A stretch of DNA of 64,000 bases, taken from NCBI RefSeq assembly GCF_017751145.1, contig NZ_CP046640.1, positions 724,137-788,136 of the forward strand. Reading direction: 5' to 3'. The number at the start of each line of letters is the position of its first letter. The stretch's first letter is position 1. Both the position numbers and the translations under genes were made by a program. Origin of the DNA: Iocasia fonsfrigidae (GTDB lineage: Bacteria; Bacillota; Halanaerobiia; Halanaerobiales; DTU029). Positions 4,041 through 49,926 of this stretch are shown here, piece after piece. Under the pieces are notes generated by a model. That model ran no database searches. It saw only the letters and a program-made list of their open reading frames with translations, and had not been told where the DNA came from.

Positions 4041-4337
4041 TAGAGTGTGTTTCTAATATAGGGGTGAGTAACGAATCTTCAAAGCCTAAAAAGTAATATT
4101 TGTTAATTTAAAGGATAAATTTACAAATAAACAAATAATTTTGCAGGAAAAAAAGAGATTGCCGTGAAGTATATAGTAAATTAGCAATATATGCAAGAGG
4201 AAGAGATGATTGCTAAAAAATGTGATGAATATACATTGGGAATAGTGCTTTGGGTAATGCTTATCATGGTGGTTATTCTAAGAAGGAATAAACAGTGGAT
4301 CTTTTATATGTAATTATATTATTTTAGCATCTTGAAT
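4041..4337 (+). other. Intergenic leader without a clear gene
   Basis: About 300 bp between the tRNA terminator and the palindromic element. Apart from a sigma-H-like promoter at 4145-4172 I see no open frame with a ribosome site and no structured RNA. It is AT-rich, and with the palindromic element that follows it forms an unusually long 5' leader of the giant surface operon. Confidence 0.5.
4145..4172 (+). promoter_or_regulatory. Sigma-H-like promoter upstream of the giant surface operon
   Basis: GCAGGAAAA (AGGA at 4145) is followed 21 nt later by GAAGTAT (4166). The same 21-nt offset between AGGAWWW and GAA(A/T) occurs upstream of the type II secretion operon, the response regulator, the aryl-CoA ligase and the HD-domain gene. 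The layout matches the known Spo0H consensus (AGGAWWW, 11-12 nt, RNNGAATWW). Downstream of the box, ATATAGTAAATTA also resembles the type II operon promoter region. Confidence 0.5.
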
Positions 4338-32955: not shown

Positions 32956-33020
32956 GATAAAGATTTAGATGAATAAATCTAATCATTAAATTTGCGATAT
33001 TAAAGAAAGGAAAGTAAAAA

Positions 33021-33710: not shown

Positions 33711-33994
33711 GATGAGATGAGAAAAGATGGTTCGGATTTAGAAAAAGTTTATAGTATTGATTACTAAAAAGTCTTGAAGTTATAATGCATACTACATGAG
33801 GAGAAAGACAGTGAATAGAGGTAAATAAAATAGTGCAAATTACTAATTTAGAAGAAGAAAGAATTAAACTATTAGAAAAAGAAATTAAACATTAAAATGG
33901 GTTAGATTTGTATAGAGCAGGGTAAACCTGCTTTTTTCTTTTATACCCTATGTTTGCTAAATGATTTAAGCTCTTACGCCTACTCTAATATTAG
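33711..33994 (+). other. Intergenic stretch with terminator, no clear gene
   Basis: About 280 bp after the cyclase gene. It contains only a 20-codon open stretch starting at a GTG (QITNLEEERIKLLEKEIKH) with no good ribosome site, perhaps a remnant, and the terminator at 33916-33937. Base composition is AT-rich. Confidence 0.4.
33916..33937 (+). terminator. Terminator of the catabolic cluster
   Basis: AGCAGG (33916-33921) and CCTGCT (33927-33932) form a stem with a GTAAA loop, followed directly by a run of T. Confidence 0.8.
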
Positions 33995-34139
33995 AACAGG
34001 TATATTCATCAGTAAATTTTGTTCAGCTGGTTGGTCTGGCAGAGGCAAAAGGAGACCCATAGAAAATAAAAATGCTATTAAAAGCTGCTGATATCAATGC
34101 CAGTGAGGATTTAGCGGTAGATGATTATAAAATTAAGAA
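33995..34139 (+). pseudogene. Fused Rhs gene relic
   Basis: The first 93 bp match the main Rhs gene near 18022-18115 (QVYSPVDFVQLVGLAGAKGD region), with a stop codon TAG replacing CAG. The next 50 bp match the distant part at 19876-19921 (NASEDLAVDDYKI). The two parts are joined, so about 1.7 kb was deleted between them. The relic lies on the far side of the catabolic cluster from the other Rhs copies. Confidence 0.85.
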
Positions 34140-34588: not shown

Positions 34589-36565
34589 ATGAAGAATTAT
34601 TCAAATTGTTTTGTAGTTTTTACAATCTTGGTAATGTTTTTATTATTGGCTAGTCAAGGTATATTAGCGGCAGGATTAACAATAAATGTTGGAAGTGTAA
34701 TAGCTGAAGCTGGTGATGCTGTTATAATACCGGTTAGTTTTGAAGATATACCTACTGTTGGTATTAACAACTGTGATTTTAGGATTGGCTTTGATAATAC
34801 GGTATTAGAAGCGGTAAGTGTAAGTGTTGGAGGTATAGTACCCAGGCCAACACTTGATTTCTATAGTTATATTAACAATGATGGGGAGTATGTTAGCTTT
34901 TTATTTGCAGATGAAGAACAACAAGGTAATAATCTAATCTATGATGATGGTGTATTTGCCAATATTGAGTTTAAAGTATTAACAGATGCACCTTCTGGTT
35001 TAACAGAAATAACAGTAAGTAATGTTGGCGCTTTTGCAGACTATGACTTGAATACTATGGAAGTTGAAACCATAGCAGGGGGTATTACTGTAGAAGGGGG
35101 AGTAGTCATTGAGGTGCCTGAAGCACCGATATTAAACTCAGCAGTAGCTGACGATGGTAATGTAACACTGGACTGGAGCAGTGTAAGTGATGCTAACGGT
35201 TATGAAGTTAAATATGGTACAAGTAGTGGTAGTTATTCACAGCAGATAGATGTGGAAAATACTACTAGTTATACAGTATCGGGTTTAACAAATGGAACAA
35301 CTTATTACTTTGTGGTGACGGCTTATAATAGTGCAGGAAGTAGTGATAATTCCAACCAATTAAGTGCTACACCTGAGAGTGACGAGCCAACTGACATAGG
35401 ACAGATTGAATTGGAGTTAAGTCAGAATACAACAACTACAACAAATACTATTAACCCTACTTATACCTTAAGCAATATTGGTACTTCTTCAATAAGTCTA
35501 TCAGATGTTAAGATTAGATATTATTACACAATTGATGGGGGACAGACACAGAATTTCTGGTGTGACAATGGGGCAATAGTCTCACCTTCATATAGTAATA
35601 TTACTAGTTCTGTAGAGGGAACTTTCACAGAAATGTCTAGCAGCACCTCAGATGTTGACTATTATCTAGAAATAGGATTTTCAGGTAATACACTGGCAGC
35701 AGGTGCTACTGCAGAAATACAGACTAGATTTGTTAAGGATGATTGGTCCAATTATGATCAAAGCAATGACTTTTCTTTTAATAATGCAGAAAATGTAACA
35801 GTATACATCAATGGTCAATTGGTCTGGGGTAATGTTCCAGAGGGAGGAACCATTGAGGTGCCTGCAGCACCAGAGTTAAATAGTGTAGAAGCTGGTGTAG
35901 GTAGTGTTAATTTAGATTGGAATAGTGTTACTGACGCTGATGGTTATATAATTAAATATGGTACTGTTAGTGCAAATTATACTCAGGAAATAGATGTAGC
36001 TTCATCTACCGCTTATACAGTGTCAAATTTACTCAATACTACTTATTATTTTGTAGTAGTGGCCTATAATGAAGCTGGAAACAGTGATAATTCTAATGAA
36101 TTGAGTGCAACACCTCAGGATGATAATGAATCAACTGAATTTACTATTGATATTGAAATAGCAACTGCAAGTCCAGGAGATACAGTAACTATACCTATTA
36201 AGTTAATAAATGTTCCTTCAGCAGGAATCAATAACTGCGACTTCAGGGTTGGCTTTGATAGTAATGTACTGGAAGTAGTAGATGTAAGTACAGGGGATAT
36301 AATACCTAGACCAGCACTTGATTTCTATAGTTATATTAACACTGAAGAAGAATACGTCAGCTTCTTATTTGCAGATGAAGAACAGCAGGGTAATAATCTA
36401 ATCTATGATGATGGTGTATTTACCAATATTGAGTTTAGAGTTCTAGCAGGAGCACCCGCTGGTTTAACAAAAATAACAGTAAGCAGTGTTGGTGCCTTTG
36501 CTGATTATGATTTGAATGTTTTTGAAGTTGAGACAGAAACAGGAGGTATTACTGTAAGTAATTAG
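34589..36565 (+). CDS. Cellulosomal mini-scaffoldin: cohesin-FN3-CBM3-FN3-cohesin
   Basis: This 658-aa secreted protein organises dockerin-bearing enzymes on cellulose. It starts with a signal peptide (residues 1-28, ending GILAA). Cohesin 1 spans about 29-168 (type I-like, DFRIGFDNTVLEAVSV, SFLFADEEQQGNN). A first FN3 covers about 176-264 (YGTSSGSYSQ, GLTNGTTYYFVVTAYNSAGS). A family 3 cellulose-binding module covers about 270-420 (NPTYTLSNIGTSSISLSDVKIRYYYT region, NFWCDNGA). A second FN3 covers about 422-512, and cohesin 2 about 517-658. The two cohesins are nearly the same, even at DNA level, which points to recent duplication. There is no dockerin, SLH or sortase anchor, so the protein would be released or held only through CBM3. 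The GH9-dockerin gene follows, and a type II secretion operon is next. Confidence 0.88.
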   Translation: MKNYSNCFVVFTILVMFLLLASQGILAAGLTINVGSVIAEAGDAVIIPVSFEDIPTVGINNCDFRIGFDNTVLEAVSVSVGGIVPRPTLDFYSYINNDGEYVSFLFADEEQQGNNLIYDDGVFANIEFKVLTDAPSGLTEITVSNVGAFADYDLNTMEVETIAGGITVEGGVVIEVPEAPILNSAVADDGNVTLDWSSVSDANGYEVKYGTSSGSYSQQIDVENTTSYTVSGLTNGTTYYFVVTAYNSAGSSDNSNQLSATPESDEPTDIGQIELELSQNTTTTTNTINPTYTLSNIGTSSISLSDVKIRYYYTIDGGQTQNFWCDNGAIVSPSYSNITSSVEGTFTEMSSSTSDVDYYLEIGFSGNTLAAGATAEIQTRFVKDDWSNYDQSNDFSFNNAENVTVYINGQLVWGNVPEGGTIEVPAAPELNSVEAGVGSVNLDWNSVTDADGYIIKYGTVSANYTQEIDVASSTAYTVSNLLNTTYYFVVVAYNEAGNSDNSNELSATPQDDNESTEFTIDIEIATASPGDTVTIPIKLINVPSAGINNCDFRVGFDSNVLEVVDVSTGDIIPRPALDFYSYINTEEEYVSFLFADEEQQGNNLIYDDGVFTNIEFRVLAGAPAGLTKITVSSVGAFADYDLNVFEVETETGGITVSN

Positions 36566-36620
36566 AAAGTAAATATATGGTTTGACCATATCATCCAATT
36601 AACCAAAAATGTTTAGCTGA

Positions 36621-36752
36621 GTATTATCTAGAGACGTTTCTATTCCAAATAGTTGGTATGGAGAGATGCCAAATGGTGATGTAAATGATGATGAAAGTCT
36701 AGATTCCTTAGATTATATTTTAAAACTTCCGGGGGGTTTTTATCTTCCCTGA
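36621..36752 (+). pseudogene. Dockerin relic upstream of the GH9 gene
   Basis: The open stretch ends at TGA 36750-36752 and contains GDVNDDESLDSLDYIL (36675-36722). This is the first calcium-binding half of a type I dockerin, almost the same as GDVNDDGSVNSLDYIL of the intact GH9 enzyme downstream. It is preceded by NSWYGEMPN, perhaps the end of a lost catalytic domain. The second half is replaced by LPGGFYLP and a stop. There is no start codon with a ribosome site. Confidence 0.8.
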
Positions 36753-36826
36753 AGGTTAAAATCAATGAATCTAGTTCTTTTGTATTATTGACGCAAGTCG
36801 CCAAAAAACATAAGGAGGTTAAGCAA

Positions 36827-39454
36827 ATGATAAGAAGGTTAACATATTTAGTTGTTTTTTTTACATTCTTTTTATTTGTATTGGTGATTACTGAGGCAAT
36901 AGTCTCAGCTGAAGTAATATTGAAAGAGTATGAACCAGGACAATTATTAAAAGAAACAAATTTTAATGAAGGTTCAGGTCTTCCCTGGCATATTGTTGAA
37001 ACAGCTCCGGCAGAAGCTTCTTTTGAACTAACAGATGGAAGATATTATGTAACAATTGAAAAAGTTAATCCCAGTGGGGGAGAAAGATGGGATCTACAGT
37101 TTCGTCATAGAGAACTTTTTGTGGAAAGCGGCCATACCTATACATTGTCCTTTACTATAAGTGCCAGTAATGACTGTCAAATATATACTAAAATAGGTGA
37201 TCAGAATGAACCATATTTTGAAGATTGGAATATGAACCAAAATTGGGAATTTATACATCTTACAGCTGGCCAGCCAGTTACAATTACACAGACATTTACT
37301 GCTAATCGTACTGCTGAAGTACTGGAATGGGCCTTTCATCTTGCTGATGCCCCTGTTGGAACAGTATTTTGGTTTGATGATCTAAGTTTAACTGATCCTC
37401 AGTTTGCCGGTCATTCACCTGAAACAAGACCAAATTACAGAGATATTCGTGTAAATCAGTTAGGTTATTTCCCTAACCGGGAGAAACTGGCAACATTGCA
37501 TACAGAAGCTACCTCACCTGTAGAATGGAGATTAGAGGATAGTTTTGGTTATATTGTTGATAGTGGCATGACAGAAGTATTTGGTTTTGATAATGATTCT
37601 GGCGAGCATGTTCATATCATTGATTTCTCAGATTTTAATCAGGTAGGTAGAGACTATAAATTATATGCAGATAGTGAACCTGTTTATGATGGTGGTGACT
37701 CATTAGTAGAAAGTTATCCCTTTGATATAGCTGATGATATGTATAATGATATGCTATATGACTCACTAAAATATTTCTATCATTCAAGAAGTGGGATACC
37801 TATTGAGGAAGAGTATGTACAAAGACCTGACCTGGCTCGTGAAGCCGGTCATCCAGTTGACATTATGGAAACAAGTACTACGGAACAGGGAGACTGGGCT
37901 TATAATGAAAGCTTTACTGTAGATGTAACAGGTGGCTGGTATGATGCTGGAGATCATGGCAAATATGTAGTAAATGGTGGTATTACTTTATGGACACTGC
38001 AGAATATGTATGAGCGTATGCTATATACCGATGATGATATATCTGCTCTTGGTGATAATACTATGAATATTCCTGAAAGTGGAAATGGAATACCTGATAT
38101 ATTAGATGAAGCAAGATATCATATGGAAGTTATGCTAAAGATGCAGGTTCCAGAAGGTTATGATAGGGCAGGTATGGTTTTCCATAAAGGTCATGACCAT
38201 AAATGGACGGGTCTTGCTACATCCCCGGCAATGGCAACGCAGTTAGTAGCAGATGGTGAAATTAATCGTATTTTAAAACCGCCTACAACAGCAGCTACTT
38301 TAAATTTTGCTGCAACTGGGGCACAGGCGTATCGTTTATGGTTAGATTATGACCAAGGTTTTGCTAATGGCTGTTTGGCAGCTGCTGAAAGGGCATGGGT
38401 AGCAGCTGTAGCAAATCCAGCTATATATGCTCCATACGATGAGTCGGTTGGTGGTGGACCATATGGGGATGATTATGTATTAGATGATTTCTATTGGGCA
38501 GCCAGTGAATTATATGTAGCAACAGGGAAAGCTGTTTATAGGGATTATCTACAGAGTTCTCCACATTATTTAGAAGTACCAAATTATCTGGAAGCTGGAG
38601 AAGAAACACATACTGTAGGTCAGTTTAACTGGGGTAATACAGCGGCTCTCGGTACTTTGACACTGGCACTTGTCCCTAATGATTTAGCCTCTGCTGATAT
38701 TGAAACCGCAAGAGATAATATTGCTACAGCAGCTGATTTTACATTAAATATACAGGCTAATCAAGGTTATGGTATTACTATTGAACCATCTCCAGTCATG
38801 GATACTGGTTTAGTAGGTTATCCATGGGGATCTAATTCATTTGTTACTAATTCAAGCATTGTTCTGGCATATGCCTTTGATTATACAAATGAAGAAAAAT
38901 ATCTAAATGGTGTTACTGAAGCTATGGATTATATGATGGGACGTAACCCTAATGAAAGGGTTTATATAACAGGATATGGTGATTATCCTATTCAATATCC
39001 ACATCATCGTTTCTTTTCCCACCAGGTTGATCCTTCATTTCCGATAGCGCCTCCAGGGATTACTAATGGTGGACCAAACTCTGGATTACAGGATCCCTGG
39101 GTTAAAGGATCTGGCTGGCAACCAGGTGAAAGGGCACCTCAGAAGAGTTTTATGGATCACATTGAATCATGGTCGACAAATGAATGTACTATAAACTGGA
39201 ATGCTCCAATGGCCTGGGTGACATCTTTTCTGGCTCAAAAGGGGAATAACAATGGTGATGTTGTGGATATAATTCCTGGTGATGTAAATGATGATGGAAG
39301 TGTAAATTCATTAGATTATATATTAGTTTGCAGGTATATATTAGGTATTTTGGCTGAGTTTCCTACAACAGATGGATTTGATGCTGCGGATTTAAATAAT
39401 GATGGCTCTGTTAATACAATAGATTATGTACTGTTAAGAGAGTTAATCCAGTAA
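36827..39454 (+). CDS. Cellulosomal GH9 endoglucanase (CBM4-Ig-GH9-dockerin)
   Basis: I take the ATG at 36827 (875 aa), because AAGGAGG lies 9 bp upstream and it begins directly with a signal peptide (MIRRLTYLVVFFTFFLFVL...VSA). A CBM4-type sandwich follows at about 25-190, then an Ig-like CelD_N module (VNQLGYFPNREKLATLHT, about 205-295). The GH9 (alpha/alpha)6 catalytic domain covers about 300-800. Its nucleophile/base region is GGWYDAGDHGKYVVNGG (about residue 370), the substrate-binding motif is MMGRNPNERVYITGYG, and the proton donor Glu lies in STNECTINWNAP (about 785). The C-terminus is a type I dockerin (818-875, two calcium loops DVNDDGSVN and DLNNDGSVN) that should bind the cohesins of the gene before. 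It hydrolyses beta-1,4-glucan outside the cell. The terminator at 39475 ends the unit. Confidence 0.95.
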   Translation: MIRRLTYLVVFFTFFLFVLVITEAIVSAEVILKEYEPGQLLKETNFNEGSGLPWHIVETAPAEASFELTDGRYYVTIEKVNPSGGERWDLQFRHRELFVESGHTYTLSFTISASNDCQIYTKIGDQNEPYFEDWNMNQNWEFIHLTAGQPVTITQTFTANRTAEVLEWAFHLADAPVGTVFWFDDLSLTDPQFAGHSPETRPNYRDIRVNQLGYFPNREKLATLHTEATSPVEWRLEDSFGYIVDSGMTEVFGFDNDSGEHVHIIDFSDFNQVGRDYKLYADSEPVYDGGDSLVESYPFDIADDMYNDMLYDSLKYFYHSRSGIPIEEEYVQRPDLAREAGHPVDIMETSTTEQGDWAYNESFTVDVTGGWYDAGDHGKYVVNGGITLWTLQNMYERMLYTDDDISALGDNTMNIPESGNGIPDILDEARYHMEVMLKMQVPEGYDRAGMVFHKGHDHKWTGLATSPAMATQLVADGEINRILKPPTTAATLNFAATGAQAYRLWLDYDQGFANGCLAAAERAWVAAVANPAIYAPYDESVGGGPYGDDYVLDDFYWAASELYVATGKAVYRDYLQSSPHYLEVPNYLEAGEETHTVGQFNWGNTAALGTLTLALVPNDLASADIETARDNIATAADFTLNIQANQGYGITIEPSPVMDTGLVGYPWGSNSFVTNSSIVLAYAFDYTNEEKYLNGVTEAMDYMMGRNPNERVYITGYGDYPIQYPHHRFFSHQVDPSFPIAPPGITNGGPNSGLQDPWVKGSGWQPGERAPQKSFMDHIESWSTNECTINWNAPMAWVTSFLAQKGNNNGDVVDIIPGDVNDDGSVNSLDYILVCRYILGILAEFPTTDGFDAADLNNDGSVNTIDYVLLRELIQ

Positions 39455-39474
39455 TATAGAAATAATTTAGGTGA

Positions 39475-39527
39475 ATATATCTCCAGGAATTAGACATCAT
39501 GGTTTATCCTGGAGATATATTTTAATT
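39475..39527 (+). terminator. Terminator of the GH9 gene
   Basis: A 14-bp perfect stem (ATATATCTCCAGGA at 39475-39488 with its complement at 39507-39520) has an 18-nt loop and is followed by TTTTAATTT. It lies 20 bp behind the stop. Confidence 0.88.
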
Positions 39528-39539
39528 TAAATGAATTAA

Positions 39540-39671
39540 ACAATTGACTATATAATGATGAGACGTTATTTACTGGGAATTATTGATGAATTGGATTATG
39601 AGCAGGGAGAAAAAGCAGCAGATATGAATGAAGATGGTGATACTATATACTTCATAGAAAAGGTTTGCTAG
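39540..39671 (+). pseudogene. Dockerin relic downstream of the GH9 gene
   Basis: The frame ends at TAG 39669-39671 and encodes TIDYIMMRRYLLGIIDE followed by KAADMNEDGDTIYFIEK. This matches the second half of the intact dockerin (SLDYILVCRYILGI ... DAADLNNDGSVNTIDYV). The first calcium loop before it is scrambled with stops, and the last helix is cut short. Together with the relic before the GH9 gene it shows decay of at least one other dockerin enzyme at this locus. Confidence 0.8.
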
Positions 39672-39778
39672 GTGTCTGATAGCGAAGGATGGATAGGAAT
39701 AAGGACACTAATTTGCAGGATAAAAGTACTATATCTAGCAGAAAAAGAAAATTTTTTATATAAAATTAATAATATTGC

Positions 39779-39806
39779 AGGAAAAGATAATATAATAAAG
39801 AAATAT
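39779..39806 (+). promoter_or_regulatory. Sigma-H-like promoter of the type II secretion operon
   Basis: GCAGGAAAA (AGGA at 39779) and AAAGAAATATAT (GAA at 39800) have the 21-nt offset shared with four other units here. The first gene starts 35 bp downstream. The flanking ATATAGTAGATTA resembles the region after the copy at 4145. Confidence 0.6.
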
Positions 39807-39840
39807 ATAGTAGATTAATCTAACTAAAGGAAGAAAAACT

Positions 39841-40851
39841 ATGTCTATTATTAAAAATGAAGAGGGTTATACCTTAATAATTGTTATCTGGGCTGTGGTT
39901 ATTTTATCTTTTATTTTTATTAATCTGGTAGATGAAATCTCTTTAGATAGACATCTGGCAGAATATGAAATAGGAGAAAAGAAAATAAGACAGGTAGAAA
40001 TTTCTGCCCTGAACATGGCTATAAATAAATTAAGGCAGGATGAAACAACGACTTATGATGGTCCTGACGATGAGTGGGTAGAAGGGATATTAACGGAGAT
40101 AAATGATATCAATTGTCAGGTCATGATAACAGATTATGGTAGTAAGATAAATATTAATTTTATAGATATTGATTTATTAACAGAACTGCCCTGGTGGAAT
40201 GAAGAAATTTCAGAAGTCTTAGATGAAGGATTAATTTCAGACCCGGTTTTATTAAAAGATGTTCTGGGTGATAATTATAAATCATTTATAAGTAGTTTTA
40301 CTACACTGGGGAAATTTAATATTAATAATGATAGTTTAGCTGGGTTGACCAAATTTCTTTCATTTTATGGGCTAAGTGAAGATGTGATTAATACAATAGA
40401 GAATAATTTAAAAAAGTTTAGAAAAGAGAAGAAATCATTTCAGAATATAGAGGATCTACCGATTAAGATTAAAGGTATTGATTATACTACCATTGAAAAA
40501 ATAGCTAATCAATTTATTCTGGAAGGTCGAATTAATATAAACCTGGTTAGTGAAGAGGTTCTAGATACTTTAAAAACAGTTCTGGGGTTAAATGAAAAAA
40601 CTAGCGAAGAGTTAATTACCTATCGTAATTCAGAAACAATTGATGATTTAGGGGTTTTAAAAGATCTTATTTCCGAAGAAGACTATAAAAAGATAAAGCC
40701 ATATTTAACAACTAGCAGTAGTTTTTTTGTGATTAATATTAAACTAACAGATATGGCAGATAATATTTTAAGAGAGACTGAAGTAGTTATAGAGAGAGAG
40801 TATCCAGAAGAAGACGAATCTCAGGTAGAGATAATAAAATATCTGAAGTAG
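39841..40851 (+). CDS. gspK: Type II secretion minor pseudopilin GspK
   Basis: The 336-aa protein begins with a short leader and prepilin cleavage site EEG|YTLIIVIWAVVIL. Residue +5 is Ile instead of the Glu found in other pilins, as is usual for GspK, which caps the pseudopilus tip. The large periplasmic part (about 40-330) has the two helix-hairpin-helix-like segments of the family (ILEGRININLVSEEVLDTLKTV region; LTKFLSFYGLSEDV). It is the first gene of the operon, whereas in proteobacteria gspK follows gspJ, so the order is unusual. The next gene follows after 13 bp. It is preceded by AAGGAAG and the sigma-H-like promoter. Confidence 0.85.
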   Translation: MSIIKNEEGYTLIIVIWAVVILSFIFINLVDEISLDRHLAEYEIGEKKIRQVEISALNMAINKLRQDETTTYDGPDDEWVEGILTEINDINCQVMITDYGSKININFIDIDLLTELPWWNEEISEVLDEGLISDPVLLKDVLGDNYKSFISSFTTLGKFNINNDSLAGLTKFLSFYGLSEDVINTIENNLKKFRKEKKSFQNIEDLPIKIKGIDYTTIEKIANQFILEGRININLVSEEVLDTLKTVLGLNEKTSEELITYRNSETIDDLGVLKDLISEEDYKKIKPYLTTSSSFFVINIKLTDMADNILRETEVVIEREYPEEDESQVEIIKYLK

Positions 40852-40864
40852 GAAAGGTGATAAT

Positions 40865-41437
40865 ATGACAGAACTGGTATTAAAAACAGTGAGATATATT
40901 TTAATATTTATATTGATTATAAGCTGTTTTTTTCTGCTGAAAACCAGGCAGAGTACTGGACAGGCTGTTAGCAATATGGATAATTATCTAGATAGGCCGA
41001 TAAATCCCTTTCAGGGGGAGATTAAAGATGACTTTTTCTTTCAAAAAATAGCCTTTTCTAATGATATTCTGACTAATATTGCCTCCAGGGAGTTTTTTGT
41101 CCTGAAAAAAAAGGAAGAAGCTGCTGAACAAGAAGAACCCGAACAAATAGTTAAAAAAAACCATATACCAGAACCGCTACCTGACCTGGTACATCAAGTT
41201 GAAAAACAAGCTGCCGCTAAAGTAGCTGAAAAATTAATAGAGAATCCCTTTATCTTATTGGGTATTTCTGTAGAAAAAGAAGGAGGGCTGGCGATTTTAC
41301 TTAATACAAAAAACAAGCAAACAGAAATAATAAGTAAGGGAGATATTTTAGAAAAATTTAAAATTATGTCAATAAGCAAAGATTGTGTTGTTATAGAGAA
41401 AGAAGGGCAGAGTTTCTGCTTGGAGTTTGAAAAATAA
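40865..41437 (+). CDS. Type II secretion inner-membrane linker, GspC/PilP-like
   Basis: The 190-aa protein has one N-terminal membrane span (about residues 8-26, VRYILIFILIISCFFLL), a charged Glu/Lys-rich linker, and a small C-terminal beta domain. The latter (about 128-190, FILLGISVEKEGGLAILL ... GDILEKFKIMSISKDCVVIE) follows the HR domain pattern of GspC/PilP, which contacts the N0 domain of the secretin. No PDZ domain follows, so it is shorter than proteobacterial GspC. Its place between gspK and gspE supports the role. The sequence identity of the HR domain is low, so PilP-like is equally possible. Confidence 0.65.
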   Translation: MTELVLKTVRYILIFILIISCFFLLKTRQSTGQAVSNMDNYLDRPINPFQGEIKDDFFFQKIAFSNDILTNIASREFFVLKKKEEAAEQEEPEQIVKKNHIPEPLPDLVHQVEKQAAAKVAEKLIENPFILLGISVEKEGGLAILLNTKNKQTEIISKGDILEKFKIMSISKDCVVIEKEGQSFCLEFEK

Positions 41438-41454
41438 TTAAAAGAGGAATTGTT

Positions 41455-42951
41455 ATGATTGATAAAAGAAAAATTGATACTGACTTAATAAAGGACTATC
41501 CTAGAGAAATTCTTAAGGAATTCCATCTCCTGCCGGCTGACAGGGAAAATGACAGGGTTATTTTATATTGTGATAAAAAACCACCTTTACCAGTAGTAGA
41601 TAACCTGGAAGTCTATGGAGGGCGAAGAATTAAAACTATAGAAATACCTGCTGAAGAGTTATCTTGGTTATTAAATGAATATCTTGATGCCCCTCTGGAT
41701 ACAGTCGAAGAGATGCTTAATGATTTAAATGATGATAGTTTAAAGGATTTTAGCAGTATAGAGCTGGATTTAAAAACTGAAAACCTGGAAGAACTGGCTC
41801 AGGAAGCACCAGTAATTCGACTGGTTAATGCTATACTAACTGCTGGATTGAAGAACAATGCCAGTGATATTCATATTGAGCCCTTTGAAGATAATCTTAA
41901 ACTCCGCTTCAGGATAGATGGTGTTTTATACGAAAACCCGGCCCCTCCCCGGGAACTCTTTCCGGCCATTATAACCAGGATAAAAATCATGGCCAGATTA
42001 AATATTGCTGAACGGCGTTTACCCCAGGAAGGGAGAATAAGGATTAAAGTACTGGGCCGGGAAGTGGATATCAGGGTATCATGTATTCCAACACTCTATG
42101 GAGAGAGTGTGGTTTTACGTATCCTGGACAGGGCAGCTTACCTGCTGGAACTGGTAAATCTTGGTTTTGAGGAAGATATGCTGGTAAATTATAAAAAGTT
42201 GGTAAATTTACCACATGGGATATTACTGGTAACCGGACCTACTGGAAGTGGAAAGACAACAACACTCTATGCCACTCTCAATGAACTAAATCTACCTGGG
42301 AGGAAAATTATAACTGTTGAAGACCCGGTAGAATACCAATTAGATGGGGTAAATCAAATTCAGGTAAAACCGGAAATAGACTTTACCTTTGCCCGGGGTT
42401 TAAGGTCTATCCTGCGCCAGGACCCTGATATAATCATGATTGGAGAGATAAGGGATTTAGTGACAGCCAAAATTGCTATTCAGGCTGCCTTAACCGGACA
42501 CCTGGTACTGGCTACTTTACATACTAATGATGCAGTAAGTGCTATAACCCGACTGATCAATATGGGGGTAGAGGAGTATCTTCTGGCCGCAACAATAAAA
42601 GGAGTGCTGGCTCAACGCCTGGTCAGGGTTTTATGTCCGCAGTGTTCAATAAAATATAAGGAGAAAAAATATGAAAAATACCTGCCAGAGGAATATCAAA
42701 CAAAAGACTTTTACATACCAGTTGGTTGTGATAGCTGTAATAATATTGGTTATAAAGGTAGAAGCGGTATTTATGAACTGCTGACTATCACAACTGAACT
42801 GGAAGAGATGATTGCCAGGAAAGTTACTACCAGTAGTTTGAGAAGTAAAGCCAGCAAGAATGGTTTTAGAGAATTGATGGCAGATGGAATATTAAAAGCA
42901 GAAAAGGGGATAACCTCTCTTGATGAGATTATCAGGGTGACAAAAAATTAA
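41455..42951 (+). CDS. gspE: Type II secretion ATPase GspE
   Basis: This 498-aa cytoplasmic ATPase powers pseudopilus assembly. It has an N1-like region (1-110), then the N2 domain with ASDIHIEPFEDNLKLRFRID, Walker A GPTGSGKT (about 260-267), the Asp box and Walker B (DPDIIMIGEIRD), the His box GHLVLATLHTNDA, and the zinc tetracysteine CPQC ... CDSC of GspE/PilB proteins. Length and motif order are canonical. It lies between the GspC-like gene (17 bp) and gspF, though a 280-bp gap carrying a palindromic repeat separates it from the latter. Confidence 0.95.
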   Translation: MIDKRKIDTDLIKDYPREILKEFHLLPADRENDRVILYCDKKPPLPVVDNLEVYGGRRIKTIEIPAEELSWLLNEYLDAPLDTVEEMLNDLNDDSLKDFSSIELDLKTENLEELAQEAPVIRLVNAILTAGLKNNASDIHIEPFEDNLKLRFRIDGVLYENPAPPRELFPAIITRIKIMARLNIAERRLPQEGRIRIKVLGREVDIRVSCIPTLYGESVVLRILDRAAYLLELVNLGFEEDMLVNYKKLVNLPHGILLVTGPTGSGKTTTLYATLNELNLPGRKIITVEDPVEYQLDGVNQIQVKPEIDFTFARGLRSILRQDPDIIMIGEIRDLVTAKIAIQAALTGHLVLATLHTNDAVSAITRLINMGVEEYLLAATIKGVLAQRLVRVLCPQCSIKYKEKKYEKYLPEEYQTKDFYIPVGCDSCNNIGYKGRSGIYELLTITTELEEMIARKVTTSSLRSKASKNGFRELMADGILKAEKGITSLDEIIRVTKN

Positions 42952-42973
42952 TTTGAAGTTGGAAAGAACTAAC

Positions 42974-43143
42974 TATATAAGTAGCACTTAAATATTGCAC
43001 TTTTCCGTTCCAGCCAATTATATTAATTCCGCTTGTCGTTCGTTACGGCGTCGTGCCTCCACTCACTGTCACATATTTTTCACTCCGGCGTCCTGCCTAC
43101 GTGAAAAATATAGAGTTGCTCCATTAATATAATTGGCTTACAC
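42974..43143. repeat. Large nested palindrome (variable-arm family, copy B) inside the secretion operon
   Basis: Outer arms AGCCAATTATATTAAT (43012-43027) and its complement (43123-43138) enclose inner arms ATATTTTTCAC (43073-43083) and its complement (43101-43111). Unpaired segments CCGCTTGTCG, TCCGGCGTCCTGCC and AGAGTTGCT are shared with copy D, although the arms differ. The left flank of 56 bp (42974-43029) is repeated exactly at 52047-52102. Confidence 0.85.
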
Positions 43144-43233
43144 AAAGCATTAGTGTGAATAGATTAAATGGAATTTATATAACTAACTAACTAACAAAAT
43201 AAGCCCGTTTGGGTGTTGAGTTCAGGTGATGAC

Positions 43234-44448
43234 ATGGTTGAGTATACCTATCAGGCATATAACAAAACTGGAAAACAGGTTTCAGGGAGTATCGAGGCAG
43301 TTACGGAAAATGAGGCTGCCAGAAAACTTTCAAGTGAAGGATTATATCCGTTTAAATTGGAAATGAAAAGCAAGTTAGGAAATGATGCCAGGGGTTTACG
43401 CTATACCACATCTAATAATAGAAGTGAAATGCAGATATTTTTCACCAGACAGCTGGCTAATTTATTATTAGCAGGGGTCCAGTTAGCTGATGCTTTAAAC
43501 ATTTTGGTAAAAATGATGAGTAATAATAGTTATCAAGGGATAGTAGAAAACATATATAAATCCCTTAAGAGCGGTAAGAGTTTTGCTGATTCACTCACTA
43601 CATCTGCAGGAAAATTTTCTGCTAATTATATAAATATGATCCAGGCCGGGGAAGAGAGTGGCGCCCTGGGTTTAACCTGTCAAAAGCTTGCCGCTGATCT
43701 GGAAGAGAGAAAAAAGCTTAAATCATTTATCTTAACTAGTTTAATATATCCAGTTATTTTACTGATAGTCTCTATTCTGGCTGTTACAGTTATGCTGGTT
43801 TTTGTACTACCCAGATTTATTGAGATATACCAATCATATAATATGACTTTACCCTGGATTACTCAAATTGTATTAAGTTTTAGCTTTTTTTTAAAAACTA
43901 ACTGGATAAATATTGCTATACTTTTTATAGCTGCTATAACTAGCAGCTGGTTTTATTTTAGTACTACAGCGGGGAAAAACAATATTGATAGGTTTGTTTT
44001 ATATACCCCCTTTCTAGGTAATCTTGTCAAAAAAGTAAAGACAAGTGATTTTGCAGCAAGTTTGAGCCTGATGCTGGGGAGTGGTGTTCCACTTTTAAAA
44101 TCATTAAGTATTATTGCTGAAACTGCTGGTAATGTAGTCTATAGAGATGGTATCAGAAAAACAGCAGAGGGGGTTAAGAAGGGAAAAAAATTATCAGAAG
44201 CCCTGAGCAGTTCCGGTGTTTTTCCTCAAATTCTAAACTATATGATAATGATCGGTGAAGAAACCGGTCAACTTCCCAGGATGCTGGAACAGGTGGCTGA
44301 ACAATATAAGGAGGAGTACCAGAATAACATCAATAGATTATTAAATTTATTTGAACCATTGGCGATTTTGGTGATGGGGACATTAATCGGTGGTATTATA
44401 ATAGCAATGTTACTACCGATTCTGGGTATTAATACAATATCATTTTAG
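43234..44448 (+). CDS. gspF: Type II secretion inner-membrane platform protein GspF
   Basis: I chose the ATG at 43234 (404 aa), after a TTCAGGTGA site; the start of the frame at 43213 adds unlike residues. The order is canonical: an N-terminal YTYQAYNKTGKQVSGSIEA segment, then two GspF cytoplasmic repeats (about 70-190 and 270-390). The repeats carry FFTRQLANLLLAGVQLADAL and TSDFAASLSLMLGSGVPLLKSL, each followed by membrane spans, with a last span LAILVMGTLIGGIIIAMLLPI. It forms the platform with GspE and GspL/M. Confidence 0.95.
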   Translation: MVEYTYQAYNKTGKQVSGSIEAVTENEAARKLSSEGLYPFKLEMKSKLGNDARGLRYTTSNNRSEMQIFFTRQLANLLLAGVQLADALNILVKMMSNNSYQGIVENIYKSLKSGKSFADSLTTSAGKFSANYINMIQAGEESGALGLTCQKLAADLEERKKLKSFILTSLIYPVILLIVSILAVTVMLVFVLPRFIEIYQSYNMTLPWITQIVLSFSFFLKTNWINIAILFIAAITSSWFYFSTTAGKNNIDRFVLYTPFLGNLVKKVKTSDFAASLSLMLGSGVPLLKSLSIIAETAGNVVYRDGIRKTAEGVKKGKKLSEALSSSGVFPQILNYMIMIGEETGQLPRMLEQVAEQYKEEYQNNINRLLNLFEPLAILVMGTLIGGIIIAMLLPILGINTISF

Positions 44449-44467
44449 AAAGGGAGAATGATAGAAA

Positions 44468-44914
44468 ATGTTAAGAACTTTAAAAAAAGAAGATGGTTTT
44501 ACATTGATAGAAATATTGATAGTAGTAGTAATTATAGGTTTTCTGGCAGCTACTGTCGGCCCGAACTTATTTAACAGGGTATCTGAGGCCAGACAAACAG
44601 CAGCTCAGAATCAAATGGATATTTTTAAACTGGCCTTAGATAATTATCGACTGGATAATGGTCAGTATCCAACAACCCAGCAGGGGCTGGCAGCTTTAAT
44701 AAAAGAACCGGGTATTCCACCTCTGGCAAAGAACTGGAATGGTCCTTATCTAGATAAAAAGGAGATCCCCCTTGATCCCTGGGGAAATGAATATCAGTAT
44801 CTTATCCCTGGTAACCATAATGACCATAAATATGACCTCTGGTCCAGGGGGAAAGATGGTAGTGATGGTGATGAAGACGGAAGTGGTGAAGGGGCAGATG
44901 TTACTAACTGGTAG
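44468..44914 (+). CDS. gspG: Major pseudopilin GspG
   Basis: The 148-aa protein has cleavage site DG|FTLIEILIVVVIIG with Glu at +5, the alpha-helix, and the GspG-specific C-terminal part (NGQYPTTQQGLAALI, GPYLDKKEIPLDPWGNEYQY). The Asp-rich calcium loop near the end (KDGSDGDEDGSG) is unusually acidic, which might reflect high salt. This is the main subunit of the pseudopilus that pushes substrates through the secretin. The 3' end overlaps gspH by 17 bp. Confidence 0.97.
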   Translation: MLRTLKKEDGFTLIEILIVVVIIGFLAATVGPNLFNRVSEARQTAAQNQMDIFKLALDNYRLDNGQYPTTQQGLAALIKEPGIPPLAKNWNGPYLDKKEIPLDPWGNEYQYLIPGNHNDHKYDLWSRGKDGSDGDEDGSGEGADVTNW

Positions 44915-45332
44915 AGAGAGAGGTACTACCTTGATAGAGGTATTGATTCTGATGATGCTAATTGCTGTTGTCAGTGCAGTAATTATCCCTTCTTTTGGTG
45001 GACTCAAAGATAGCATAATGGTTAATACATATCAACGTAAAATAGACAGGTATTTTAATATAATTAGAAGAAGTGCCGTTAATAGTGGACAGGAAGAGAC
45101 TATTAATCTTGGTAGAAATAATATAAGCTGTAATTTAAGTAATGGTGAAAGCCTTAAACTGGATTTTGCAGATGAAAATATCTTGACCCTGGAATATGAA
45201 GAAAAACAGATTATATTTTATCCTGATGGGACAAGTTCCGGTGGGGAGATATTATTGGTTTTTAATAAGAAAGAAAGATATTACTTTCAGATTAATTCTA
45301 TTACAGGAGAAACAGGGTGGTATGAACCATGA
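44898..45332 (+). CDS. gspH: Minor pseudopilin GspH
   Basis: I start it at ATG 44898 (144 aa), after GGTGAAGGGG, since the frame upstream is only the out-of-frame gspG. The processing site is RG|TTLIEVLILMMLIA with Glu at +5. The C-terminal beta domain is compact and variable (IICNLSNG-like, YPDGTSSGGEILLV), as in GspH/FimT. It overlaps gspG at its start and gspI at its stop (ATGA), so translation is coupled. Confidence 0.85.
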   Translation: MLLTGRERGTTLIEVLILMMLIAVVSAVIIPSFGGLKDSIMVNTYQRKIDRYFNIIRRSAVNSGQEETINLGRNNISCNLSNGESLKLDFADENILTLEYEEKQIIFYPDGTSSGGEILLVFNKKERYYFQINSITGETGWYEP

Positions 45333-45682
45333 GTAATGAAAAAGGCTTTACCCTGATTGAGGTTCTCATAGCCATGGTTATACTAGGGATCAGTTTTACT
45401 ATCCTGATAGAAGGATATAGAACTATTATGGCCAGTGCAGAGAGGAATAGAGATTATCTACTGGCTGCCAAATGGTCTGAAGATAAATTAATAAGTATTG
45501 TCAATGGTGACGACTCGGACCGCCGTGGTTATTTTGAAGAAAACGGTAAAGAGTATAGCTGGTGGGTAGAAGAAAAATGCCTTGATGATAATCTTATTAG
45601 ATTTGATTTAATAATGAGCTGGCCGGGTCTAAGGGCAGAAATAAAATATAGCTGTAGTAGATATCTAGTAAGGAGCCAGTAA
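45329..45682 (+). CDS. gspI: Minor pseudopilin GspI
   Basis: The 117-aa protein has processing site KG|FTLIEVLIAMVILGISF and Glu at +5, with a short C-terminal domain typical for GspI (EDKLISIVNGDD, GYFEENGKEYSWW). It belongs to the tip complex with GspJ and GspK. Its ATG overlaps the gspH stop. Confidence 0.88.
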   Translation: MSNEKGFTLIEVLIAMVILGISFTILIEGYRTIMASAERNRDYLLAAKWSEDKLISIVNGDDSDRRGYFEENGKEYSWWVEEKCLDDNLIRFDLIMSWPGLRAEIKYSCSRYLVRSQ

Positions 45683-45683
45683 G

Positions 45684-46271
45684 ATGAAGGAAGAAGGTTT
45701 TACTTTACTGGAGATTTTAATAGCTATAACGATTACAGGAATTGTATTTGGAGCTGTTTTTGCCTTTTTACACCAGGGACTAATGATCTGGGAGGATTTT
45801 GGAGAAGATGAGGATTACAGTCAGTATATCCGGGTTCTGGATAGTAATTTAAAAAATGACCTTAAATATATTTTTTGCTCTGAATATAGTACAAAAAATT
45901 TGTTAAAGGGTGATTATTATAGTGGTCTGGAGTTTTACATATTAAAGGATGACATCTTACAGAAGATTAGATATGAAGCGGATTACCGGCAGAATAGTAT
46001 TGTAAAAACTGCTACAACAATTGATGAGTTAACTGAAGACACAGAAGAAAAAACAATATCCTTTGTAGTTGGTAAAGAAATAACTGACATATTATTCTAT
46101 TATTATAATCCGGAGAATAATTATTGGGAAAGCAGTTGGTCATATAGTGATGAGACGAAAGGCTATCTACCGGCTGCTGTAAAGATTGAAATCAAACACC
46201 GAAAAGGTGATAATATCGAGAAGCTGGTGGAGATATTAGGGGAGATTTATGTAGGTAGAATATATAAATAA
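45684..46271 (+). CDS. gspJ: Minor pseudopilin GspJ
   Basis: The 195-aa protein has processing site EG|FTLLEILIAITITGI with Glu at +5. It is longer than GspI and H, with the beta-rich domain of GspJ (LEFYILKDDILQKIRYE; LPAAVKIEIKH, the latter corresponding to the common PxxVxI strand). It follows gspI by one base and precedes gspL by 20 bp. Confidence 0.87.
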   Translation: MKEEGFTLLEILIAITITGIVFGAVFAFLHQGLMIWEDFGEDEDYSQYIRVLDSNLKNDLKYIFCSEYSTKNLLKGDYYSGLEFYILKDDILQKIRYEADYRQNSIVKTATTIDELTEDTEEKTISFVVGKEITDILFYYYNPENNYWESSWSYSDETKGYLPAAVKIEIKHRKGDNIEKLVEILGEIYVGRIYK

Positions 46272-46291
46272 GAAGATAAAGTGGAGGTAAA

Positions 46292-47593
46292 ATGGTGGAG
46301 TTCTTTAAAAAATACCAGACTTATATTTTGATTGATGATAGTATTATCCAGTTAGTTCAGCTAAAAAAGGGAGAATTAATATTTAATAATGTTTACGATT
46401 TTAACCCACTGCAGAACAGAATATCAGAATACTTGGAAATGTTGCAAAAAAAGACAAAAACAGTCAAAATAATAGTTCCATCAACGAAATTAATGATAAA
46501 AACCCTGGAACTACCACCGGTTTCTGATAATAAAATTAACGATATCTTACAATTTAAATTTATTAATGAATTACCATATGCCAGTAATGAAATTTATTAC
46601 AGGTATCTAAGAAACAGTAAATCTGCTGATAAGCAGGGACTGGCTGTTGCCGTCAGCAAAAAATACATAACAGAGATTACCGAGCTTTGTTCCAAAGAGG
46701 GTCTTGCAATTAAAGGTCTCTTACCCCTAAGCCCTTTGTTCTATCTAGATTATCATAATAAACAGGGGATTGAGGACAGCCTTTATATTAATATTAACTG
46801 TCATTATTGTTATTTTACTTTGATTTATAATAATGATAGTTACCTAAAAGGATGTGGATATACTGGTAAAATTGATTTATATGATGAAATAGTAAGGATA
46901 TATGAATATGGTCAGGAAGAGATTGGCCAGAAAGAGATTTCTATTGTTATAAATGGTGAAACAGTTAACTTTAATGATATAAATAAATTTCTGACAGGTC
47001 TGGATATTGCTAGTATAGATGATAATCGGCTCTGGAAAAAATTTTATAGTTTAGAAAAGAGACTCATCTCACTGGATTTTTATCAATTGCTTCCACAGGT
47101 TAAACAGCAGAAAAAAAGAATAAAGTCTATTTCTATTGGTATTTTACTACTATTAATTTTCTTAGTTAACGGGACAACCCTTTATTATAAATGGCAAGAT
47201 AAAAAAAATTATATTGACTATCTTGCTACTCTTGAAACTAAGCAACAGACAATAGTTGATGAAATAGAACAGCTTAATGAAGAATGTCAGCTTATTGCTG
47301 TCGAACTGGAATTTTATAGTAATATTATAGGTGAAAACAACTACAGTTACCTGCCCTGGCTGCAGGAAATAAGTAATCTCCTACCAGAAGGAACCAGGGT
47401 AAATAGCATAAATTTTAAGGATAAAGAACTAGTGCTTCTGGCAGGTAAAGCTAAATCAGCAGCTGATGTACTGGCTGCTCTGGAGAGTTCCTCACTTTTT
47501 TCCCAATTACATTTTATCGGTAGTATCAATCTGGAAGAGGATCTGGAGAGTTTTAAGATTGCAGGTGATTTAATCTATGAAACTAACAATTAG
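46292..47593 (+). CDS. gspL: GspL-type platform protein (PilM-like plus PilN-like halves)
   Basis: The 433-aa protein has a cytoplasmic actin-like part (residues 1-270, opening YILIDDSIIQLVQLKKGE, with VPSTKLMIKTLELPPVSDNKI). It has one membrane span (about 278-296, SIGILLLLIFLVNGTTLYY) and a periplasmic coiled coil plus ferredoxin-like domain (about 300-430, LPWLQEISNLLPEGTRVNSINF). This corresponds to PilM and PilN of type IV pili joined in one chain, as in GspL. It recruits GspE and links it with GspM. The end overlaps gspM by 17 bp. Confidence 0.85.
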   Translation: MVEFFKKYQTYILIDDSIIQLVQLKKGELIFNNVYDFNPLQNRISEYLEMLQKKTKTVKIIVPSTKLMIKTLELPPVSDNKINDILQFKFINELPYASNEIYYRYLRNSKSADKQGLAVAVSKKYITEITELCSKEGLAIKGLLPLSPLFYLDYHNKQGIEDSLYININCHYCYFTLIYNNDSYLKGCGYTGKIDLYDEIVRIYEYGQEEIGQKEISIVINGETVNFNDINKFLTGLDIASIDDNRLWKKFYSLEKRLISLDFYQLLPQVKQQKKRIKSISIGILLLLIFLVNGTTLYYKWQDKKNYIDYLATLETKQQTIVDEIEQLNEECQLIAVELEFYSNIIGENNYSYLPWLQEISNLLPEGTRVNSINFKDKELVLLAGKAKSAADVLAALESSSLFSQLHFIGSINLEEDLESFKIAGDLIYETNN

Positions 47594-48149
47594 AGAGAGA
47601 CGTCTGCTAACAATGGCAGCTATTGTCATTTCATTTATTTCAATTTATAGCTGGATATATAAACCTGTTAGTGATTATTATTTTCAACAATTAGAAAGGG
47701 AGATTGAATTAAGTCATCGACTTGATAGAAATAAGATGCTGATAGCAAGAGGGCCTAAATACCGGGAAATGATAGAAACTGCCACCAGTAAGATTGAAAA
47801 ATACCAGCAATTTTTTTTTCATGGAAGTACCGCTCAGCTCCGATTAGAGGTAATTAATACAATTGATCAGGAAGCCAGAAATAATAATTTGAATTTGAAA
47901 AACAAAGCTCTGAGTATCTATCCTGGATCAGAGGAAACTACCGGTAATAAATTAACTCTGGTGGAATATCGGGGAAATTTTACCGGGAGTTTTAGAGATA
48001 TATTGTTTTTTTTAAATAGTCTCAACAAACAAAAGGAGCTTTACCAGCTTACAGAATTACAGCTTAAAGGTGGGGAAAATTCTGATGTTTTATCACTATT
48101 TATAAAAATTGCTGTCTACTGTATAGGGGATGATGAAAATGAGGTCTAA
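47577..48149 (+). CDS. gspM: GspM/PilO-like platform protein
   Basis: The 190-aa protein has one N-terminal membrane span (LTMAAIVISFISIYSWIYKPV), then a coiled coil and a ferredoxin-like domain with the PilO/GspM pattern (LVEYRGNFTGSFRDILFFLNSLNKQKELYQLTELQL). It pairs with GspL in the periplasm. It overlaps gspL at its start and gspD at its end. Confidence 0.82.
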   Translation: MKLTIRERRLLTMAAIVISFISIYSWIYKPVSDYYFQQLEREIELSHRLDRNKMLIARGPKYREMIETATSKIEKYQQFFFHGSTAQLRLEVINTIDQEARNNNLNLKNKALSIYPGSEETTGNKLTLVEYRGNFTGSFRDILFFLNSLNKQKELYQLTELQLKGGENSDVLSLFIKIAVYCIGDDENEV

Positions 48150-49926
48150 TAAATATGTTTTAATTTTTCTTATCTTAGTGTTTTGTATTCTGTCAACAAA
48201 TGTTACAGCTGAGGATAAATTAGTAACACTTAAAGTACGTGGTGCTAACATTAATGATGTCTTGTTAATGTTAACAGAACAGAGTGGGATCAATCTGGTG
48301 CCTGATGAAACTGTACAGGGTCAGGTGACTATTGATTTAAGGGATGTAAATATACAGGATGCTTTAAGGACCTTGACTATTGCCTATGGTTATCATTTTG
48401 ATATGATAGCAGATAATATCTATCTGGTTAGTAGAGAAGGTTTTAACCAGCCAGCAGAAATAAATGTAAAAAATGGTCGTCTGACTGTAATTGTAGAAAA
48501 TGGAGACATCAGGAATATATTGAATCAAATAGCGCAAATGGCTGCTCTAAATATTGTGATGGATGCCCAGATAAATGGTACTGTATCGGCGAATATCAAA
48601 GATGTGCCTCTGGAGATTGGTTTAATGAGTTTTTTACAGGCCAATGGTTTTTCTCTAAGCAAGAGTAATAACATCTACCGTATCTTTGCCAGTGGCAAAG
48701 GTGGAATGCCGAATAATCTATCAATCTCTGTGGTAGATGGAATGGTCAGTATTGATGTCCAGCAGGCAGACCTGAGTGAAGTTTTAAGAACTATTTCGAG
48801 ACTGGCTACTATTAATATGGTGCTCTTTAGTGGAGTGCGTGACACAATAGACTTAAAACTTGATAATGTGCCCCTTGAAGAGGTAATTGATGTTATTCTA
48901 TCAGGAACTAGATTTACTTATAAGTATAGTGAAGGGGTCTATCTTATTGGAGATAAAAATCCTAATAGTTATTCTGCTAATCTTTTAACTACAAATGAAA
49001 TAATACCTCTGGAATATTTACAGGTGGAGGATGTACCACAGCTTTTACCTAATAATTTTCCCACAGCAAATGTCAAAGTAATTAAAGAACAAAATGCCTT
49101 AATGGTGACCGGAACACAGCAGGAGATTGATGGACTGAAAAAATACATTAATAAGATAGATGCCAAGATACCTCAAATAGTTGTTGATGCCTTGATTATC
49201 CAATTAAACAAAAGTAAAAATGAAGGCCAGGGTATTAAAATCGGTTCACTATATGAGGATAATGATAATGAAGAAAAAGCTACAGTTCTTTTTGATACTG
49301 CCGAAGGACAGATTAACTATAAATCGGTCTTAAAACTACCCAATGATTTCTATTTTAAAATTAATAATCTTGTTACTCAAGGGTTGGCTACAGTCAAAGC
49401 CCGTCCTAATATCACTACTTTAAACGGACAGCAGGCCAATATAGATGTTAGTACTACTCAGTATTATAAGATTGTTGAGACAGATAGCGATGGTAATGAA
49501 GATATATCATATGAGAGTGTGAGTGCCGGGGTAACCCTGGAAGTAACACCCTGGGTCAGTAGTACTGGAGAGATAACCCTTAATCTAAAACCTGTAGTTA
49601 GTAATATCGGTTCTGCTGCTCTTGATGGTGGTCGACCTCCGGTTGACCGCCGGGAGGCCAGTACTACAATCAGGATAAAAGATGGCCATACTATAGTTCT
49701 TGGTGGGTTAATACAGGATGTAAGGTCAAATACTAAAACCAAAGTACCGTTTTTCAGTAAACTGCCGCTTATCGGCTCCTTATTCCGTACAAATGACAGT
49801 GATATATCCCAGACAGAGCTGGTTATTTATATAACCCCACATGTTCTTAAAGAGCGAGAGGAGGATGTCAAAGAAGATATGCAGGAGATGAATGATAAAG
49901 TTGATAAGGTTGGAGAGGGGATTTAG
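48139..49926 (+). CDS. gspD: Secretin GspD (outer-membrane channel)
   Basis: I choose the ATG at 48139 (595 aa), which is 9 bp behind AGGGG; ATGs at 48130 and 48133 are too close. A signal peptide (MRSNKYVLIFLILVFCILSTNVTA) is followed by STN/N0-type domains: TLKVRGANINDVLLMLTEQS, then two more of the same type at about 105-175 and 195-265. An N1/N3-like domain follows (about 275-345, PLEYLQVEDVPQLLPNNFP). The C-terminal secretin barrel (about 350-580) contains GVTLEVTPWVSSTGEITLNL, PVVSNIG and VPFFSKLPLIGSLF. Three STN-like repeats make it partly PilQ-like. A secretin needs an outer membrane, so this gene supports a diderm envelope. It is the last gene of the operon. Confidence 0.95.
   Translation: MRSNKYVLIFLILVFCILSTNVTAEDKLVTLKVRGANINDVLLMLTEQSGINLVPDETVQGQVTIDLRDVNIQDALRTLTIAYGYHFDMIADNIYLVSREGFNQPAEINVKNGRLTVIVENGDIRNILNQIAQMAALNIVMDAQINGTVSANIKDVPLEIGLMSFLQANGFSLSKSNNIYRIFASGKGGMPNNLSISVVDGMVSIDVQQADLSEVLRTISRLATINMVLFSGVRDTIDLKLDNVPLEEVIDVILSGTRFTYKYSEGVYLIGDKNPNSYSANLLTTNEIIPLEYLQVEDVPQLLPNNFPTANVKVIKEQNALMVTGTQQEIDGLKKYINKIDAKIPQIVVDALIIQLNKSKNEGQGIKIGSLYEDNDNEEKATVLFDTAEGQINYKSVLKLPNDFYFKINNLVTQGLATVKARPNITTLNGQQANIDVSTTQYYKIVETDSDGNEDISYESVSAGVTLEVTPWVSSTGEITLNLKPVVSNIGSAALDGGRPPVDRREASTTIRIKDGHTIVLGGLIQDVRSNTKTKVPFFSKLPLIGSLFRTNDSDISQTELVIYITPHVLKEREEDVKEDMQEMNDKVDKVGEGI

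Follow-up and report, generated by a model that had tools for sequence, protein, structure and literature searches.

The stretch of DNA analyzed here (the window: 64,000 bp, positions 724137-788136 of the single 3,926,493-bp contig of the Iocasia fonsfrigidae NS-1 genome) contains genes for a scaffoldin and a GH9-dockerin cellulase, followed by an eleven-gene type II secretion system (T2SS) operon, gspK-C-E-F-G-H-I-J-L-M-D (window positions 39841-49926, all on one strand). An initial interpretation made from the letters of the window (the sequence-only reading) had remarked on this neighborhood; relatives improve on the observation, having far larger cellulosome clusters joined to the type II operon, of which a remnant appears to be left in Iocasia. 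The explanation we favor, at a probability of roughly 0.7, is that the type II system exports polysaccharidases and, in the Halanaerobiaceae, came to export cellulosome parts that assemble outside the cell.

In the genome designated G008 (Halanaerobiaceae), a run of dockerin enzymes and a multi-cohesin scaffoldin lies directly upstream of gspKCEFGHIJLMD on the same strand, in the order (5' to 3') scaffoldin, GH48, GH3, GH8, three GH9, GH5, a 229-aa protein, a dockerin protein, GH9, GH5, GH5, GH10, GH9, gspK. The dockerin run is broken only by the 229-aa protein, which is secreted and has no family; the dockerin protein after it has no GH family match and is GH30-like by eye, and the scaffoldin, cut by the contig end, has at least six cohesins. 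At least six dockerin proteins, colinear with those of G008, precede gspK in G004, up to the contig end. The co-occurrence of cohesin or dockerin genes with gsp genes, for which the sequence-only reading had proposed a search of related genomes, thus recurs in two other genera, and in far larger clusters.

Across the class (59 Halanaerobiia genomes), strong GspG matches occur in 12, and dockerins in four: Iocasia (1), G004 (9), G008 (32) and G027 (1), the last without a GspG match. The lone G027 dockerin (C289:7847-10363, L068) is part of a surface-like protein, large and with many domains, whose gene neighbor is a subtilase-like protease. The three genomes pairing dockerins with a gsp locus all fall within the 12, an outcome with a chance of 0.007 if genomes were independent, which they are not: the figure ignores kinship. 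The flanks of the combined gsp and cellulase block have no common orthologues among Iocasia, G008, G004, G006 and Halothermothrix orenii (for G004, two flank genes only), with the exceptions of Rhs-like repeats in two loci and ABC-ATPase similarity in two; background synteny has therefore gone while the block persists. T2SS loci of other phyla, taken from the matches listed in a GspE search, provided the tree outgroup and a comparison set for dockerins close to a T2SS: the 80 named loci listed gave one marginal dockerin-like match near gspE. The linkage between cellulosome and gsp genes is more than chance.

The eleven genes themselves were as the sequence-only reading had them, on the same strand, in the same order and with family matches, tightly packed with intergenic gaps of -20 to +20 bp except for one of about 260 bp between gspE and gspF:

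39841..40851, + strand: gspK; NF037980 1.8e-10, below cut-off; orthologues (27-55%) at the same place in other K-first operons.
40865..41437, + strand: gspC-like, a transmembrane helix plus an HR-type beta domain, without PDZ; TIGR01713 weak, fold match 3oss_C.
41455..42951, + strand: gspE ATPase; TIGR02533 at cut-off, and tree.
43213..44448, + strand: gspF; TIGR02120 4e-109, PF00482.
44468..44914, + strand: gspG, major pseudopilin; TIGR01710 above cut-off, PF08334 5e-37.
44898..45332, + strand: gspH; NF047827/TIGR01708 below cut-off; the open reading frame (ORF) opens at 44772, with a likely start near 44898.
45329..45682, + strand: gspI; TIGR01707 4.9e-8, below cut-off.
45684..46271, + strand: gspJ; TIGR01711 5e-5, PF11612.
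46292..47593, + strand: gspL, a T2SSL/PilM-like part and a PilN domain in one protein; PF05134, PF11104, PF05137.
47577..48149, + strand: gspM; NF040576, PF04612 weak; orthologues.
48130..49926, + strand: gspD secretin; PF00263, PF07660 (two copies), PF21305, PF03958.

Two of these proteins reach the curated cut-offs of their T2SS models, GspE barely (TIGR02533, 630.5 against 630.25 bits) and GspG easily (TIGR01710, 160.9 against 88.85 bits). GspF, GspK, GspI, GspJ, GspH, GspM and GspC match the corresponding T2SS models below cut-off, and the parts matching the correct models only at this level are the fast-evolving ones; the minor pseudopilins H, I, J and K among them stand in canonical order and have orthologues in the K-first operons. 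The GspL/GspM platform is present, GspL with its T2SSL/PilM-like part at the N terminus and PilN domain at the C terminus. GspC, barely matched by sequence, was modelled with AlphaFold2 (AF2) using ten orthologues: the first Foldseek match of its C-terminal domain was the HR domain of E. coli GspC (3oss_C; TM-score 0.81 on the target, rmsd 1.3, E 3e-3), with PilP structures ranking next, so that the model identifies it as a GspC with an HR domain. In GspD, the secretin domain is certain and is preceded by about three tandem N0/STN domains and one N1 (Pfam and the AF2 model, pLDDT 66, agree); the signal peptide attributed to it earlier is also seen, as a hydrophobic signal-like N terminus. Signal peptides were assessed throughout by hydrophobicity only.

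The operon had been called complete, which goes too far: GspO (the prepilin peptidase), GspN, GspS and GspAB are not found within it. The genome has exactly one PF01478 prepilin peptidase, inside a separate type IV pilus locus, which presumably serves both the gsp operon and the pilus and supplies this function at the genome level. That locus also has PilB, PilT, PilC, PilD and PilMNOPQ homologues (the PilT-like ORF is at 2386483-2387568), while no PilT was seen among the ORFs of the gsp operon in the window; the two secretins of the genome are the GspD of the operon and the PilQ of the pilus locus. Trees against pilus homologues, which cover E and D, were the phylogenetic check suggested from the sequence: all twelve Halanaerobiia GspE fall into a single clade (support 100), distinct from the PilB of the same class, and ten GspD of the class form one clade (support 99) outside PilQ. 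The result that had been named as fatal to the idea, a phylogeny with all eleven genes among pilus families and PilT close by, was thus not obtained. The eleven genes are a real type II secretion system.

Ahead of gspK in Iocasia lie the following:

34589..36565, + strand: scaffoldin, 658 aa; Pfam PF00963 (two copies), PF00942, PF00041 (two copies); signal-like N terminus.
36788..39454, + strand: CBM4/9-CelD_N-GH9-dockerin cellulase; Pfam PF02018, PF02927, PF00759, PF00404; start probably at about 36827.
39465..39532, + strand: terminator-like hairpin immediately 3' of the GH9 gene.
39540..39638, + strand: dockerin relic of 33 codons, with no complete gene; tblastn and dockerin HMM.
39710..39840, + strand: non-coding gspK leader, conserved with G008.

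The Pfam domains bear out the presence of a scaffoldin (laid out as cohesin-FN3-CBM3-FN3-cohesin) and a GH9-dockerin cellulase ahead of the gsp operon, the latter ending 386 bp upstream of gspK. The nearest solved-structure relatives of the scaffoldin are cellulosomal scaffoldins, and orthologues of the enzyme occur in the G004 and G008 clusters (78 and 61% identity). The label "cellulosome", as applied to this locus, was too generous: a scaffoldin with more than one cohesin (two, against at least six in G008) and a dockerin enzyme are there, but family searches found one dockerin and two strong cohesins in the whole genome, so that the several dockerin enzymes of G008 (32 dockerin matches) and G004 (9) have no equivalent, and no cell-surface anchor was seen at the locus. 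The relic lies where G004 and G008 have the dockerin of their gspK-adjacent GH9-CBM3 enzyme, which is also its best tblastn match within each cluster (58 and 52% identity, respectively); it scores 39.9 bits with a dockerin profile, where 3000 shuffled frames reached 8.3 at most. The DNA before gspK also aligns between Iocasia and G008 (local score 138; shuffled sequences reached no more than 78). Given the relic and the homologous junction DNA, the most fitting interpretation of the Iocasia locus is a product of deletion, the decayed remnant of a cluster like those of G008 and G004, and not a full cellulosome. As a separate observation at this junction, the motif TTGCAGGAAAA occurs seven times in the window with one mismatch allowed (2.6 expected), for example at 4141, 39775 (just before gspK) and 55448.

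The order gspKCEFGHIJLMD is shared by Iocasia and nine other class members (ten K-first operons), and two further members carry gsp genes in a different order. A second T2SS lineage was observed in G044 and G045 (L168, L169), ordered E-F-G-H-I-J-K-L-M-C-D and with the same upstream genes in both. The slot before gspK is filled by a secreted alpha-amylase in H. orenii, and by a 71% identical orthologue in G057, from another family. The concatenated T2SS tree follows family grouping (Halanaerobiaceae 97/97, H. orenii outside), and because of this the T2SS looks vertically inherited and seems to predate the cellulosome genes. For the gsp operons with cellulosome genes, grouping in one clade was neither supported nor rejected (p-AU 0.29).

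Most known cellulosomes belong to monoderm clostridia, in which only one membrane needs crossing. I. fonsfrigidae NS-1 is a strict anaerobe of the Halanaerobiaceae with Gram-negative cells (PMC8652127), and the single match in its genome to LpxC, an outer-membrane marker, agrees with published descriptions of a lipid A pathway and an outer membrane in Halanaerobiales (PMC2626281); the diderm host supposed by the sequence-only reading is therefore supported. T2SS operons in Halanaerobiales are already in print: two secretin operons/T2SS operons were noted in H. orenii in 2009 (PMC2626281), and T2SS in diderm Clostridia were published in 2019 (PMC6668835). A 2024 paper (PMC11557425) lists the two-cohesin scaffoldin and sole dockerin enzyme of I. 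fonsfrigidae, judges the pair unlikely to make a conventional cellulosome and terms the species gram-positive. Among the open-access papers searched, none was found that joins the Halanaerobiales T2SS with cellulosome genes.

The proposed route is as follows. Polysaccharidases would be exported by Sec, and the folded enzymes would pass from the periplasm through the GspD secretin to the outside, with pseudopilins matured by the one prepilin peptidase of the genome, in the type IV pilus locus. The slot before gspK would be a place for exported substrates in more than one lineage: some have alpha-amylase there, and the Halanaerobiaceae a clostridial-type cluster (scaffoldin, GH48, GH8, GH9, GH5, GH10 and others with dockerins), whose scaffoldin and enzymes would be exported singly and assembled outside the cell; in I. 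fonsfrigidae, deletion would have shrunk this cluster to the two-cohesin scaffoldin, one GH9-dockerin enzyme and the dockerin relic. Complete proteins of the cluster have a hydrophobic signal-like N terminus by the same heuristic. That the scaffoldin and cellulases are T2SS substrates, that the peptidase is shared and that assembly is extracellular is what we infer from this arrangement, which makes T2SS export of cellulosome proteins plausible.

Substrates of a T2SS are not readable from sequence, and the retained linkage could be inheritance without function. In the latter case the T2SS would be real and its position beside cellulosome genes an inherited accident, with other enzymes as substrates for the system, and a scaffoldin and cellulases that exit otherwise or stay in the periplasm. 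Several observations count for this, against export or both. The hairpin between the GH9 gene and gspK is strong (-29.3 kcal/mol over 39455-39535, z -6.8, with none of 200 shuffles equally stable), and because of it the two units are probably transcribed apart in Iocasia. No gene for a secreted hydrolase adjoins gspK in four of the ten K-first operons (G006, G051, G056, G058), and G047 has only a secreted protein of unknown kind. G008 and G004 have more dockerin genes elsewhere in their genomes, many of them in G008; G030 has GH9 without a T2SS; and the T2SS seems older than the cellulosome genes of the group because it is present in H. orenii and in other families that lack dockerins. Zhang et al. 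(2021; PMC8652127) count T2SS proteins among the NS-1 proteins absent from strain SP3-1, itself cellulose-degrading, where the T2SS may thus be dispensable. An accident of inheritance nevertheless sits poorly with a linkage kept in three genera despite turnover of the flanks, with secreted amylases, orthologous to each other, filling the same slot in two other families, with the presence of only one other secretin in the genome, and with large cellulose-binding proteins, which would be pointless in the periplasm; we regard it as improbable.

The Iocasia scaffoldin-GH9 pair might instead be non-functional debris of a lost cellulosome, with the T2SS alone of importance. The dockerin relic, the deletion relative to G008 and G004, and the low genome-wide count of dockerins and strong cohesins would all fit such decay, but each of the two genes is an intact frame of full length that retains every domain and a signal-like N terminus, and both cohesins align with the Pfam profile across its full length, making this too an unlikely account. 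Weakest is the idea that the gsp operon is a type IV or competence-like pilus variant for cellulose adhesion or DNA uptake: the secretin does score higher with the PilQ model (236; cut-off 284) than with the GspD model (164; cut-off 351), below both cut-offs, GspL does end in a PilN domain, and the secretin score and the missing local prepilin peptidase are weak points for the export reading as well, but the GspG and GspE scores, the separate clades, the HR fold of GspC, the lack of PilT in the operon and the distinct pilus locus elsewhere leave it very little room, and on the trees and family models it was rejected.

Export of cellulosome parts by the T2SS could extend to a true Halanaerobiaceae cellulosome outside the outer membrane, with parts exported singly and anchored by cohesin lipoproteins (candidates occur in G008), and Iocasia a stripped-down form; this we advance only tentatively, along with the equally tentative idea that such outer-membrane lipoproteins would replace the S-layer or sortase anchors of clostridia. 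Two further cohesin proteins of G008 have lipobox-like N termini (C15:12041-12805, L071, and 32752-34056, L072) and offer no more than a lead here: should they be lipoproteins of the outer membrane, they could keep enzymes at the cell surface. The Klebsiella type II system exports the lipoprotein pullulanase, and surface lipoproteins are thus compatible with a T2SS. Many genomes of the order have a protein of about 660 aa with a weak C-terminal cohesin-like domain (G000:C1:2140663-2142651, L070; relatives L004-L019; not all matches reach the curated cut-off). We weighed it as another scaffoldin and decided against this, since many of the genomes that carry it have no dockerins and since its neighbors in G000 and G004 are gyrA/gyrB and genes resembling TonB/ExbD/ExbB. 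This protein probably corresponds to the "second scaffoldin" in PMC11557425, and is unlikely to be part of a cellulosome.

Other features of the window lie upstream of the scaffoldin. Positions 4340-24459 and 25525-27051 encode a pair of giant proteins, 2898 and 3808 aa long, of which the second at any rate is of Rhs/YD-repeat type, and a separate Rhs-like C terminus; Rhs-like genes are also found just past gspD in H. orenii and G056. Between 27971 and 33710 are a divergent GntR-like regulator, a permease, an isocitrate lyase/PEP mutase-like protein, a cupin, a ketopantoate reductase-like protein and a cyclase, in what looks like a small catabolic cassette (names by eye, the cyclase alone checked).

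If export of cellulosome parts by the T2SS is correct, this pairing of a cellulosome cluster with a type II operon in a diderm would illustrate how a complex of that kind could be built beyond an outer membrane, would point to candidate substrates of type II secretion outside the Proteobacteria, and would suggest a route to cellulosome display on Gram-negative production hosts. The large clusters of G008 and G004 and the remnant in Iocasia make a natural series.

Among the closest known systems is the reported Halanaerobiales cellulosome of strain ANBcel28 (PMC11700989), which G008 resembles in GH9 content and family; the main text of that paper makes no mention of a type II secretion system. 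The T2SS of H. orenii has the same order and orthologous genes, with its alpha-amylase before gspK, and differs in that its genome has no dockerin or cohesin match. The Proteobacterial T2SS (Gsp/Out/Pul) also has a pseudopilin operon, and all of GspC, D, E, F, G, H, I, J, K, L and M are in the Iocasia operon, with GspG and GspE fitting the models. Many proteobacterial T2SS secrete cellulases and amylases. The Iocasia operon differs from them in being K-first, in lacking GspO/N/S/AB, in forming its own clade in trees, in its secretin (about three N0-type domains, PilQ-like score) and in a GspC without PDZ. Clusters of the cip-cel type in monoderm clostridia begin with a scaffoldin followed by GH48, GH8, GH9 and GH5 dockerin genes, as does G008, on one strand; in G008, however, the cluster runs straight into a T2SS operon in an outer-membrane genome, and in Iocasia it is reduced to the scaffoldin and one GH9.

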